Assembly: GCA_026626905.1 (NCBI GenBank)
Contig: JAPNUX010000005.1
Location: forward strand, 1 to 64,000
Origin: Desulfurococcus sp.
GTDB taxonomy: Archaea > Thermoproteota > Thermoprotei_A > Sulfolobales > Desulfurococcaceae
Reading direction: 5' to 3'
Length of the DNA: 64,000 bases
Below the pieces are notes generated by a model that had not been told where the DNA came from, did not search any database, and saw only the letters and a program-made list of their open reading frames with translations. Positions 50,105-55,984 of this stretch are shown in pieces (positions within the stretch are counted from its first letter, which is position 1; each line of letters begins with the position of its first letter). Position numbers and translations under genes: made by a program.

Positions 50105-51506
50105 ATGAGCATCATAGATACAATCATAAATACAATAAACTACATTAATGCGCTAGTATGGGGGCTACCTGCAGTAATAATTCTTGCTGGAACAGGGCTA
50201 GCAGTAAGCGTTCTCAGCGGGTTTGCCCAGATCAGGTATTTTAGAAAAGCCCTCAAAAATATGGTGTATAAGGGCACTGGAGCTAAAGGCGAGATACGGC
50301 CCTTCGCCGTCTGGTGGGCTGTGATGGGTGCAACTGTTGGCGTGGGTAATATAGCAGGAGTTTCGACAGCTATACATTTAGGTGGTGCTGGAGCACTCTT
50401 CTGGATGTGGGTCTGCGCTATTCTCGGAATGATGACTAAAGCTATCGAGGCAACACTTGCAAATTACACGAAGAGAGTCACCCCTGAGGGACGGGTAGAA
50501 GGTGGAACCCCATACTACATCAGGCTCATCCCGGTGGTGGGTCCAGCTCTAGCGGTAATATTTTCTATATTCACGTTTATTGCTGCATTCGGTATTGGAA
50601 ACATGGTTCAAGCTAACTCGGTAGCTCACGCCGCCGAGTATATTGCTGGAATGTATAAGGGCTCTCCCGAGGTGGCTAGACTGCTAGCAGGCATCTTGAT
50701 GCTAGTATTCACAGCTCTAGTCGTCCGAGGAGGCTTGAAAAGAATCGCAGAGGTATCAAACTACCTGGTTCCCTTCATGGTTACCTGGTATATTGCTGTA
50801 AGTATTATCGCACTGGTGATATACGCTGAAAATCTCCCACTAACAATTAGAGAGATATTTACCTACGCTTTCACACCACAAGCAGCTGCCGTAGGCCTTG
50901 CAGGCTGGGTGGTTTACTCGGCTATTAGGTGCGGTTTTTGCTAGAGGACTGTTTTCAAATGAAGTCGGGTTAGGCAGCGCCCCCAACGCCTACGCGTACA
51001 TGGCTGTGGACCACCCCGGTAGAGCAGGGCTCTACGGGATGTTCGAGGTCTTTATGGATACAATAGTCATATGCAGCATGACTGGCTTAGTGGATATTGC
51101 CACACGAGCATATATTGAGAGAACAGATTTAACTGGTGCTGCTCTAGTTACTGAAGCATTCCGTAGAGTTTATGGTGATTGGGCTCCCATACCGCTTGGC
51201 GTAGCACTAGCATTATTCGCTTACACTACGCTAATAACATGGGGGTGGAATGGTGAAGTCAACTGGGTTTACTTCTGGAGTAAAACTCTCCGGTTGCCTG
51301 AGAAGCCTGTGAGATGGGTGTGGAGGGTCATGTGGGTTATACCAATAGTTCCTGCTGCTATTGCTGGAGAAATGCTAGAGGTATTCTGGAATTTTGCTGA
51401 CATGGCTAATGGATTTATGGCTATCCCGAACCTTATAGCTGTAGCCTACTTCGCCCCTGTAGGTGTAGGGTTGATCAAGGAGTTCTTGAGAAGCGGGAAA
51501 ATATGA
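50105..51506 (+). pseudogene. alanine:cation symporter (AGCS family), broken by a frameshift
   Basis: The N-terminal 275 residues (to AGWVVYSAIRCGF) are in the frame of the ATG at 50105, which has a GGGGGT run before it. A TAG follows at 50941. The rest, ARGLFSNEVGLGSAPNAYAY and on to the end, is one frame over. AVMGATVGVGNIAGVSTAI and the ARGxFSNExGLGSAP motif are diagnostic of AGCS Na+/H+-alanine or glycine symporters. Removing one T from TTTTT (50935-50939) restores a single frame of about 466 residues. The downstream half is intact and well conserved, so this is either a sequencing error in the homopolymer, a recent mutation or a slippage site. Confidence 0.88.
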
Positions 51507-53405: not shown

Positions 53406-53987
53406 ATGGGCATGCTCATAGTTATAGCTGGCACACCAGGTACAGGTAAGACTAGTGTTTCTAGAGAGCTCTCACTGATAACAGGGCTTCCAGTAGTAGA
53501 CTTAGGTAGCTTTGCACTTGAAAAAGGATTTATAGTAGACTTCGACTACGAGAGGAATAGCTATGTGGTAGACGAGGATGCTTTATCCCAGAGTATAGTG
53601 GAGCTTGCCTCGAAGTCGGAAAGTGATCTCATAGTGTCGACGCTCTACCCTGAGATCCTCAAGCCGGAGATCGTTAGATACGTGTTTGTGCTTAGAACAC
53701 ACCCGCTGATACTCGAGAAAAGGCTTGAAGCAAAGAATTGGAGTAGGAGAAAGATTAACGAGAACATCATGGCTGAGATACTAGGCGTAGTCTCCTATAA
53801 TGCTGTGGAAGCCTTCGGAGAAGAAAAAGTATTTGAAGTAGACACCTCGAATACCACGCCGAGAGAAGCTGCTGAAATGATATCAAGGATTATGAGTGGC
53901 GTGGAAGCAGTTAAACCCGGGGTAAGAGTAGACTGGCTGCTCCTACTCCCAGTGGAAGTAGTCTCGAGGTTCAAGGACTATGAGTAG
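53406..53987 (+). CDS. AK6/Fap7-type adenylate kinase, probable ribosome-assembly factor
   Basis: 193 residues. P-loop IAGTPGTGKTSVSREL (7-22), the GLPVVDLGSFALEKG AMP-site segment and THPLILEKRLEAKNWSRRK, which matches the RL..R..W..K pattern of the Fap7/hCINAP family. In yeast and Pyrococcus this ATPase acts in small-subunit assembly with S11. GGAGGG precedes the ATG. It opens a four-gene run whose members overlap by 8, 14 and 8 bp, which indicates a true operon. The C-terminal 35 residues are an extra tail. Confidence 0.87.
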   Translation: MGMLIVIAGTPGTGKTSVSRELSLITGLPVVDLGSFALEKGFIVDFDYERNSYVVDEDALSQSIVELASKSESDLIVSTLYPEILKPEIVRYVFVLRTHPLILEKRLEAKNWSRRKINENIMAEILGVVSYNAVEAFGEEKVFEVDTSNTTPREAAEMISRIMSGVEAVKPGVRVDWLLLLPVEVVSRFKDYE

Positions 53988-54816
53988 CCGGGGAGGTTTC
54001 ACGCTGGCGTCCTGGAGGCAGCTTGAAAGAATGATCTCTAGAGTAGACGTCGTGTTAATGGTGCTTGATGTAAGAGACCCATTGAGCACTTTCAGCAAGA
54101 GGCTTGAATCCATGGTCTACAAGCTCGGGAAGAAGTTAATACTAGTACTCAATAAAGCCGACCTAGTTCCTAGGAGCGTTGCAGAAGAGTGGAAGGAGTA
54201 CTTTGAGGAGAGAGGGTACACTACAGTCTACATGGCTGCAGCAAGACATATGGGTACACTAGTCCTCAGGAGGACTATACGTAGAGTTGCTCCCTCACTA
54301 CCCACAGTAGTCGCTGTAGCAGGATTCCCTAAGGTCGGTAAGTCCTCGATCATCAATGGATTAAAAGGAAGGCATTCAGCCCCCACAAGCCCCTACCCGG
54401 GAAGCCCAGGGTATACAAGGCACTTCCAGCTCTACAGGATCGACAAGAATATAATGATACTAGACTCCCCTGGCGTAATCCCCGTTGAAGGCGGGATGCT
54501 TGAAGCAGTGATCAGAGGCTACCCGCCCGAGAAGCTGGAGGATCCAGTCCCCCCGGCAGTTATGCTAGTCGAGAGGATCTTAAAGTATCATCCCGATGCC
54601 TTCGAGAAAGCTTATGGTGTTAAATCTAGAGAGCCCCTTAGAATACTCGAGGAGATAGCATTAAAGCGCGGCTGGGTCTACAAGACTACAAAAGAGCCTT
54701 TAATTGAGGAGGCTGCTAGAGCTGTTATAAGAGGCTACCATGATGGAGTAATACCCTTCTATATAAGGCCCTCATGGATTAATAGGGGGGCAGGGGAGCA
54801 CGTTGATAGTAGTTAG
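53980..54816 (+). CDS. circularly permuted GTPase, YlqF/RbgA-like (HSR1/MMR1 family)
   Basis: 278 residues. Motif order is permuted: G4 NKADLVP (about 58-64) comes before G1 GFPKVGKSSI (about 114-123) and G3 DSPGV. Family members bind the large ribosomal subunit late in assembly. A helical C-terminal domain follows (about 185-278). The ATG overlaps the AK6 gene by 8 bp. With Fap7 next door, a ribosome biogenesis operon is a fair inference. Confidence 0.9.
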   Translation: MSSRGGFTLASWRQLERMISRVDVVLMVLDVRDPLSTFSKRLESMVYKLGKKLILVLNKADLVPRSVAEEWKEYFEERGYTTVYMAAARHMGTLVLRRTIRRVAPSLPTVVAVAGFPKVGKSSIINGLKGRHSAPTSPYPGSPGYTRHFQLYRIDKNIMILDSPGVIPVEGGMLEAVIRGYPPEKLEDPVPPAVMLVERILKYHPDAFEKAYGVKSREPLRILEEIALKRGWVYKTTKEPLIEEAARAVIRGYHDGVIPFYIRPSWINRGAGEHVDSS

Positions 54817-55003
54817 AGTAGCGGGTAGAGAACACCCTATCCACGTAGATGCATCCAGCGTGAGGGTTTCAGAGCTACTCGAGAAACTAGGGTTCTCTAT
54901 ATCAGAGCACATCGTTCTAAGGAGTGGTATTCCATTAACCGAGGATGATGTAGTAGGAGATGGAGAAGAAGTTCTAGTATACCCTGTTAAATCAGGTGGC
55001 TGA
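54803..55003 (+). CDS. ubiquitin-like beta-grasp protein (MoaD/ThiS/SAMP family), first copy
   Basis: 66 residues from TTG. VVRVAGREHPIHVDASSVRV starts the beta-grasp fold, and the C-terminus ends VKSGG with the exposed Gly-Gly that is activated by an E1-like enzyme. Such proteins either carry sulfur to tRNA or molybdopterin, or are attached to proteins as archaeal SAMPs. It overlaps the GTPase gene by 14 bp and the E1-like gene by 8 bp, so it is the obvious partner of the latter. Confidence 0.85.
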   Translation: MIVVRVAGREHPIHVDASSVRVSELLEKLGFSISEHIVLRSGIPLTEDDVVGDGEEVLVYPVKSGG

Positions 55004-55775
55004 GTTGAGCCTCAGCCAGGATGAACTGGAGAGATACAGCAGGCAGCTACCCATTATAGGAGTAGATGGACAATTGAAGCTCAAGAATACCAGCGTGCTT
55101 GTGGCAGGAGCCGGCGGGCTGGCCTCCACAGTACTCTACTATCTTACTGCAGCTGGAGTCGGGAGAATAGTATTCATCGATGACGGTGTAGTAGAGTTAA
55201 GTAACCTCCAAAGACAAATACTCTATGATTCAAGCGATATCGGTAAACCGAAAGTACAAGCAGCCTACGAGAAGCTCGCTAAGCTGAACCCTGGGGTAGC
55301 CTTAGAGCCGGTTCACGAAACCATAACTAGAGAGCTGCTTAGCAGGCTAGTACCGAGAGTAGACTTGATTGTTGACGCCTTAGACAACTGGAACACCCGC
55401 TTCCTGCTAGACGAGGCTGCATGGATGCACGGTAAGCCATTAGTTCACGCAGGTGTCGGAGAATACTACGGTCAGCTCACAGTGGTAATACCCGGGGAGA
55501 CACCATGCCTGCGCTACTTGTTCAGAGGGGTGAGAGACGAGGGGAGAGGGGGAGTTGTAGTCCTACCCCAGGTACCCGGCATCCTAGGGCTCCTTGAAGT
55601 AAACGAGGTCTTCAAGCTTGTGCTCGGCTACGGTAGGCCGCTAGCCAACAAAATGCTCTTATTCAATGCGAGAAACCCCTCGCTAGAGGTAATCGAGTTA
55701 AAAGTAGATGAGAACGTTAAAGCAGAGGTATTAAAGTACTGTGGTGAACCATTCAGAGGTATCGTGAAACCCTAG
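54996..55775 (+). CDS. E1-like adenylyltransferase (ThiF/MoeB/HesA family) lacking most Cys
   Basis: 259 residues from GTG. SRQLPIIGVDGQLKLKNTSV, VAGAGGLASTVLYYL (36-50) and FIDDGVVELSNLQRQILY (60-77) are the ATP-binding and adenylation motifs. ALDNWNTRFLLDEA follows. The protein has only two Cys, 171 in TPCLRYLF and 249 in KYCGEP. The CxxC pairs that hold zinc in MoeB/ThiF are incomplete, and no Cys follows where the thioester or persulfide Cys is usual. It should adenylate the Gly-Gly end of a beta-grasp protein. The gene sits between two such genes. Confidence 0.88.
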   Translation: MAELSLSQDELERYSRQLPIIGVDGQLKLKNTSVLVAGAGGLASTVLYYLTAAGVGRIVFIDDGVVELSNLQRQILYDSSDIGKPKVQAAYEKLAKLNPGVALEPVHETITRELLSRLVPRVDLIVDALDNWNTRFLLDEAAWMHGKPLVHAGVGEYYGQLTVVIPGETPCLRYLFRGVRDEGRGGVVVLPQVPGILGLLEVNEVFKLVLGYGRPLANKMLLFNARNPSLEVIELKVDENVKAEVLKYCGEPFRGIVKP

Positions 55776-55984
55776 CCTCCTAGAAACTCCTCGACGACAA
55801 CCACTCTATCGCTACTCTTAACACGTAGATCCCATGAATCAGCTACTCTATCATTCACGATAACCATGATGTCGCTACCTGTTAGCTCGCTTCTAAGAAC
55901 CTCTATAATCTCCTTTAGAGTCAACTCTCCTCCATTAATATCTAATTCAACACCCTTAGGTATTAGCTTAACCTTAACCATCAC
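55772..55984 (-). CDS. ubiquitin-like beta-grasp protein (MoaD/ThiS/SAMP family), second copy
   Basis: 70 residues on the opposite strand, with its stop overlapping the end of the E1-like gene by 4 bp. KVKLIPKGVELDINGGELTL and IMVIVNDRVADSWDLRV fit a ThiS/Urm1-like beta-grasp fold; it ends VVVEEFLGG, again with terminal Gly-Gly. It differs clearly in sequence from the first copy. It is convergent with the E1-like gene, so it is separately transcribed. Adenylation by the neighbouring E1 is inferred. Confidence 0.8.
   Translation of the reverse strand: MMVKVKLIPKGVELDINGGELTLKEIIEVLRSELTGSDIMVIVNDRVADSWDLRVKSSDRVVVVEEFLGG

Follow-up and report, generated by a model that had tools for sequence, protein, structure and literature searches.

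A sole E1-like adenylyltransferase beside ubiquitin-like genes in a Desulfurococcus genome: a probable shared activator of sulfur carriers

What does an E1-like protein with just two cysteines do when its gene is flanked by genes for two different small proteins, each ending in Gly-Gly? The question is posed by a 64,000-nucleotide stretch of Desulfurococcus sp. DNA (contig JAPNUX010000005.1, hereafter the window). The answer that we favour, with a probability of about three in four, is that this protein is a general adenylyltransferase of the MoeB/UbaA type, the only one in the genome, charging ubiquitin-like proteins (Ubls) for sulfur transfer without an E1 thioester: Ubl-1 for tRNA, MoaD proteins for the molybdenum/tungsten cofactor and Ubl-3 as a further carrier or modifier. 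The locus would then offer, in compact natural form, a single adenylating enzyme that works with several different Ubl partners and has no catalytic cysteine, near the sulfur-carrier state presumed to be ancestral to ubiquitin conjugation.

The locus and its conservation

The relevant features of the window are as follows; the names Ubl-1, Ubl-2 and Ubl-3 were coined in this analysis and are unrelated to UblA, UblB and UblC of T. kodakarensis.

53406..53987, plus strand: AK6/Fap7-like kinase, opening the gene run (AAA_18; PRK03839 putative kinase, below its cut-off)
53980..54816, plus strand: RbgA/YlqF-like GTPase, overlapping both neighbours (GTPase_YlqF 110.6 bits, below the cut-off of 208)
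54803..55003, plus strand: Ubl-1, beta-grasp, most likely a TtuB/SAMP2-like sulfur carrier (66 amino acids, TTG start, ends VKSGG)
54996..55775, plus strand: E1-like adenylyltransferase of MoeB/ThiF fold (PF00899, 218 bits; pLDDT 92; MoeB 1jw9)
55041..55385, plus strand: R16 to D130 of the E1-like protein, with R16, GxGG 38-41, R73, K86 and D130 (invariant alignment columns; roles as in PMC7527816)
55506..55508, plus strand: Cys171, first cysteine of zinc pair 1 (CLRY where CLRC is expected)
55740..55742, plus strand: Cys249, last cysteine of zinc pair 2 (LKYC where CxxC is expected)
55772..55984, minus strand: Ubl-3, beta-grasp, convergent with the E1-like gene (70 amino acids, ends EEFLGG; model pLDDT 86; Foldseek)

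A sequence-only reading of the window had described the SGG-ending, E1-like and LGG-ending open reading frames, and all three are present with the strands, lengths, overlaps and cysteine positions that it gave. The E1-like gene (54996-55775), as read from the window, encodes 259 amino acids, with Cys171 and Cys249 as the sole cysteines. Upstream, the AK6-like, RbgA-like and Ubl-1 genes overlap head to tail and look like a single operon. The Ubl-1 and E1 genes overlap by 8 bp, provided that the GTG start of the latter (54996) is correct; a start at TTG 55005 instead yields a 256 amino acid protein beginning MSLSQDELERY, which agrees better with relatives, and does away with the overlap. At its other end the E1 gene overlaps Ubl-3 by 4 bp on the opposite strand. 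Elsewhere in the window (50105-51506), an alanine-symporter-like gene is broken into two overlapping open reading frames (279 and 202 amino acids); in two congeners it is a single frame of 462-467 amino acids, and the break is a frameshift or a sequencing error.

Across the order, the E1-like protein is present in 106 of 117 genomes and Ubl-1 has matches in 80. Gene neighbourhoods at the E1 locus were read in 16 genomes of the host's family. The AK6-RbgA pair lies directly 5' of E1 in 14 of these; Ubl-1 follows RbgA in 11, with E1 next in nine of the 11 and missing from that position in the other two (L201 and L202). Ubl-3 is convergent with E1 across the family. Since Ubl-1, E1 and Ubl-3 are conserved in relatives, the arrangement is not a matter of chance. 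In most family loci, however, two convergent Ubl genes, Ubl-2 and Ubl-3, lie 3' of E1, making three Ubls around the enzyme, and it is the middle one (Ubl-2) that has been deleted in the window. The E1 gene between two Ubl genes is thus real here but is a derived state rather than a fixed two-Ubl pair; nor is a single partner the rule in most of the related genomes.

The E1-like protein and its cysteines

The E1-like protein matches PF00899 at 218.2 bits, well above the curated cut-off of 28.1, and a profile search finds it to be the sole ThiF/E1-family protein in the 1.27-Mb, 99.9% complete genome; as a control, the same search recovered E1s in 12 of 14 well-known organisms. With one PF00899 protein in the genome, the possibility that this is a second, specialised copy is ruled out. 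Scores against the MoeB equivalog (TIGR02355, 158.3 bits, cut-off 376.6), the ThiF equivalog (TIGR02356, 183.8, cut-off 275.3) and the SAMP-activating UbaA model (NF047750, 192.2, cut-off 450) all fall below threshold, which counts against the explanation favoured here. The structure model (pLDDT 92) is closest to MoeB and ThiF (TMt 0.91-0.92; for MoeB 1jw9, TMt 0.91 and rmsd 1.8), and the adenylation residues R16, G38/G40/G41, R73, K86 and D130 are invariant in alignments of relatives.

The crossover loop of the protein, LFRGVRDEGRGGVVVLPQVPG, contains no cysteine. To place this in context, the cysteines of E1s at 60 loci were surveyed, 44 of the proteins being short. All of the long E1s (about 285-360 amino acids) have a crossover-loop cysteine, as does a long-like protein of 274 amino acids (L104). 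The cysteine is missing from 41 of the 44 short E1s and present only in L079, L082 and L083, so the enzyme probably adenylates only, like MoeB. Substrates of MoeB and ThiF are activated by adenylation alone (PMC7527816), and the short E1 type, largely lacking the catalytic cysteine, is in agreement with both. Because the crossover cysteine is absent here and from nearly all short E1s, and because the model is nearest to MoeB/ThiF, it is likely that no E1 thioester is formed, as the earlier reading had ventured. Its observation that the catalytic cysteine is missing is correct, but the absence is general to short E1s rather than peculiar to this gene, and the cysteine pattern does not hold the key to mechanism. 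The idea that the missing cysteine signals a new mechanism is ruled out on the same grounds, 41 of 44 short E1s of the order, together with several archaeal and bacterial relatives, being without it.

The zinc site is a different matter. Neither CxxC pair is intact, as had been claimed, but each retains one cysteine (CLRY...LKYC), marking Cys171 and Cys249 as zinc-site remnants. Most short E1s have intact pairs; reduction is seen in two genera, the window's own and another (including a Thermogladius MAG, L304). On the maximum-likelihood tree, well-supported branches force two separate changes, and no bootstrap tree accommodates the loss in one. Both lineages retain the same two cysteines, the one that opens pair 1 and the one that closes pair 2, although chance alone would produce this about one time in four to six. 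Since the hosts are hyperthermophiles, it is natural to think of a disulfide replacing zinc, and we speculate that a Cys171-Cys249 bond may stand in for the lost site in the C-terminal lobe. Loss of the zinc site is the sole special trait of the cysteine pattern. A broader proposal, that two hyperthermophile genera independently swapped the zinc site of a MoeB-type E1 for a disulfide between the same cysteines and that the same E1 charges Ubl-3 as a lineage-specific carrier, is a tentative one that we would put at well short of even odds.

The ubiquitin-like proteins

Ubl-1 gives weak Pfam matches to SAMP2 and ThiS (25.1 bits against SAMP2, PF21965, where the cut-off is 27), and a phmmer search of the PDB finds SAMP2 5lda_B (E 1e-4) and also PF1061. 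Its position in relatives also bears on its role. In the remaining five of the 16 family genomes, Ubl-1 lies elsewhere and adjoins a TIGR00269 thiolase of the TtuA/NcsA type (the genes themselves were read in G009, G107 and G101; for G095 and G058 the placement comes from coordinates, in the latter across the chromosome origin). Beyond these genomes, one more genus of the family and two further families of the order show this adjacency (L242, L206, L209), and at L203-L206, L209 and L242 the Ubl-1 homologue is 6 bp from, or overlaps, the thiolase gene. Because Ubl-1, when not behind RbgA, adjoins such a thiolase, we consider it most likely to be a TtuB/SAMP2-like carrier for tRNA thiolation. 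The link to tRNA thiolation suggested in the sequence-only reading thus gains support, the Ubl-1 homologues concerned lying directly 5' of TtuA/NcsA-type genes. In the window's own genome TtuA lies away from Ubl-1 (G000:C1), which adjoins E1 and RbgA instead, and a second thiolase paralogue is also encoded. In genus g3 the second TIGR00269 thiolase paralogue has a JAMM gene at a distance of 1.5-3.5 kb (G113:C2, G089:C9, G138:C18, G136:C23 and G134:C13).

How many carriers does the enzyme serve? A profile search, which sets a lower bound, finds at least four Ubls with Gly-Gly termini in the genome: Ubl-1, Ubl-3, a MoaD ending FSGG that adjoins MoaE (L190) and a MoaD-like carrier ending AAGG beside an AOR-like gene (L191). 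With a single PF00899 protein to hand, elimination suggests that the same enzyme should be responsible for activating four Ubls or more. The earlier suggestion of one adenylating enzyme with two partners gains support as regards the shared enzyme but set the number of partners too low.

In the mechanism that we propose, the Ubl tail would enter the ATP site of the E1-like protein, whose fold and residues are as described above, to form a Gly-adenylate. AMP would then be displaced by persulfide from a SufS-type desulfurase, or by sulfide, yielding a thiocarboxylate with no E1 thioester. Thiocarboxylated Ubl-1 (Ubl-1-COSH) would pass its sulfur via TtuA/NcsA to tRNA for 2-thiolation, the separate MoaD proteins of the same genome would supply molybdenum/tungsten cofactor synthesis, and Ubl-3 would be a further carrier or modifier. 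A SufS-like cysteine desulfurase with an intact Cys loop is encoded; had the desulfurase been lacking, free sulfide would have been suggested as sole donor. Two further observations concern the MoaD-like genes of this genome: the AOR-like gene beside the AAGG carrier is broken into two open reading frames (L191:5987-7724), and there are two MoaD-like proteins with non-terminal Gly-Gly (L238:4492-4770 and L239:4628-4921; GGS and GGIFLNGVT), with no Prok-JAB match.

Ubl-2, the carrier missing from the window, is a protein of about 87 amino acids with an invariant TPEMGG end and a ThiS Pfam match in 10 of 10 members. In the window genome nothing matches it better than a different MoaD, which scores 30.7 bits, where intact family orthologues score at least 115. 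The gene has been lost or broken repeatedly in the family (L116, L061, G113 and the window): it is interrupted by a stop codon in G009 and frameshifted in G107, and G113 does not have it at all. Ubl-2 therefore appears dispensable, and its repeated decay suggests that the carriers are redundant with each other. Co-loss, taken as a test of whether Ubl-2 is the MoaD partner of MoaE, gave no support for that idea: MoaE and a separate MoaD persist here without it. Outside the window's family, in family f2 (L195-L198), Ubl-2 lies near what appear by eye to be PCNA, primase and TFS genes.

Ubl-3 is the most divergent of the three Ubls, with P9, G69 and G70 its only invariant columns. The model (pLDDT 86) has a beta-grasp fold with Foldseek matches to MoaD, TtuB and SAMP1; five of 11 family members match ThiS (PF02597), the window protein not being among them. 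We found no functional assignment for Ubl-3 in the literature and no tie to any pathway, which counts against our preferred explanation. Might Ubl-3 not be an E1 substrate at all, but a stand-alone or vestigial beta-grasp protein brought next to E1 by accident when Ubl-2 was deleted? Its divergence, the broken copy in one Thermogladius MAG and the fact that it adjoins E1 here only through that deletion would all fit. Against this, the Gly-Gly end is invariant in 11 of 11 aligned members and in 12 of 16 family loci the gene lies no more than about 3 kb from E1, and we regard the idea as very improbable. As a putative further carrier or modifier charged by the shared E1, Ubl-3 is a clear target for discovering a new sulfur-transfer or tagging pathway.

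Known systems and the question of tagging

Because it resembles a Thermococcus system already studied, the system is mostly ordinary: the arrangement is real and conserved, but the idea of one E1 serving several Ubls has been proposed before. In that work (PMC11323500), TK2117, the sole E1 of T. kodakarensis, produces pyrophosphate in the presence of TK2118, and three Ubls are proposed as its substrates; UblA acts in tRNA thiolation and UblB in tungsten cofactor synthesis. Both organisms have a single E1/MoeB/ThiF enzyme with several Ubls (UblA, UblB and UblC in T. kodakarensis), a ThiS-type Ubl for the thiolation of tRNA alongside two thiolase candidates, and MoaD-type Ubls for the tungsten cofactor. 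The Thermococcus E1s examined likewise lack the crossover cysteine. Unlike here, the E1-linked Ubl of T. kodakarensis (TK2118) is of MoaD type, and neither an AK6-RbgA operon nor Ubl-3 is described for that organism in the accessible part of that work (PMC11323500). The Thermococcus E1s examined also differ in lacking the zinc site altogether and in ending earlier. The modest new points are therefore the zinc-site loss and Ubl-3.

Other systems bear comparison. E. coli MoeB-MoaD and ThiF-ThiS share the fold (TMt 0.91-0.92), the adenylation residues and beta-grasp Gly-Gly substrates, but the window E1 has its zinc CxxC pairs down to one cysteine each, no crossover-loop cysteine and, apparently, no tie to one partner. 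The UbaA-SAMP1/2 system of Haloferax volcanii and the ELSA-Urm1 system of Sulfolobus are similar in having the genome's sole E1-like protein, no rhodanese domain and a SAMP2-like Ubl with a link to tRNA thiolation. Among Sulfolobaceae and others in the order, the long E1s have a crossover cysteine and a C-terminal extension; the window E1 has neither. In Thermus thermophilus TtuA-TtuB-TtuC, too, an E1-like enzyme serves a Ubl carrier with a TIGR00269-type thiolase, but the window's carrier gene adjoins E1 and RbgA, with TtuA elsewhere. Gene links between archaeal ThiS and PP-loop proteins and between E1 and Ubls were reported in the 2010 arCOG survey of Makarova and Koonin, which included a Desulfurococcus genome; the accessible survey text is silent on the cluster of three Ubls, on the link to AK6-RbgA and on the loss of the zinc site (PMC2948915).

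In T. kodakarensis, which has a single E1, Ubls become conjugated to proteins, so a missing catalytic cysteine is compatible with a modifier role, and the named Thermococcus relatives of TK2117 are also without it. Could the locus serve mainly SAMP-like tagging, with E1 activating Ubl-1 and/or Ubl-3 for attachment to lysines, perhaps those of the adjoining ribosome-assembly factors? The conserved AK6-RbgA neighbourhood (14 of 16 family genomes) would suit such a role. We nevertheless consider it unlikely, given that the Ubl-1 homologues adjoin thiolases, that the E1 lacks the crossover cysteine and that the Prok-JAB profile detects no JAMM deconjugase in the window's own genome or in the two genus mates sampled. 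Co-occurrence of JAMM genes with cysteine-bearing E1s shows no clean split by eye, several lineages with only cysteine-less E1s having JAMM. The tie to ribosome assembly offered in the earlier reading gains no support beyond the AK6-RbgA neighbourhood, which was seen in no other family among the loci read.

In family f8 the E1 gene has a different setting, following a MoaD-MoaE fusion, a link that favours the carrier-charging role proposed above. At this locus (L243:2085-4061, genome G018), a JAMM-type protease gene, the fusion and E1 lie in tandem, and the protease could cleave the fusion to free a Gly-Gly end.
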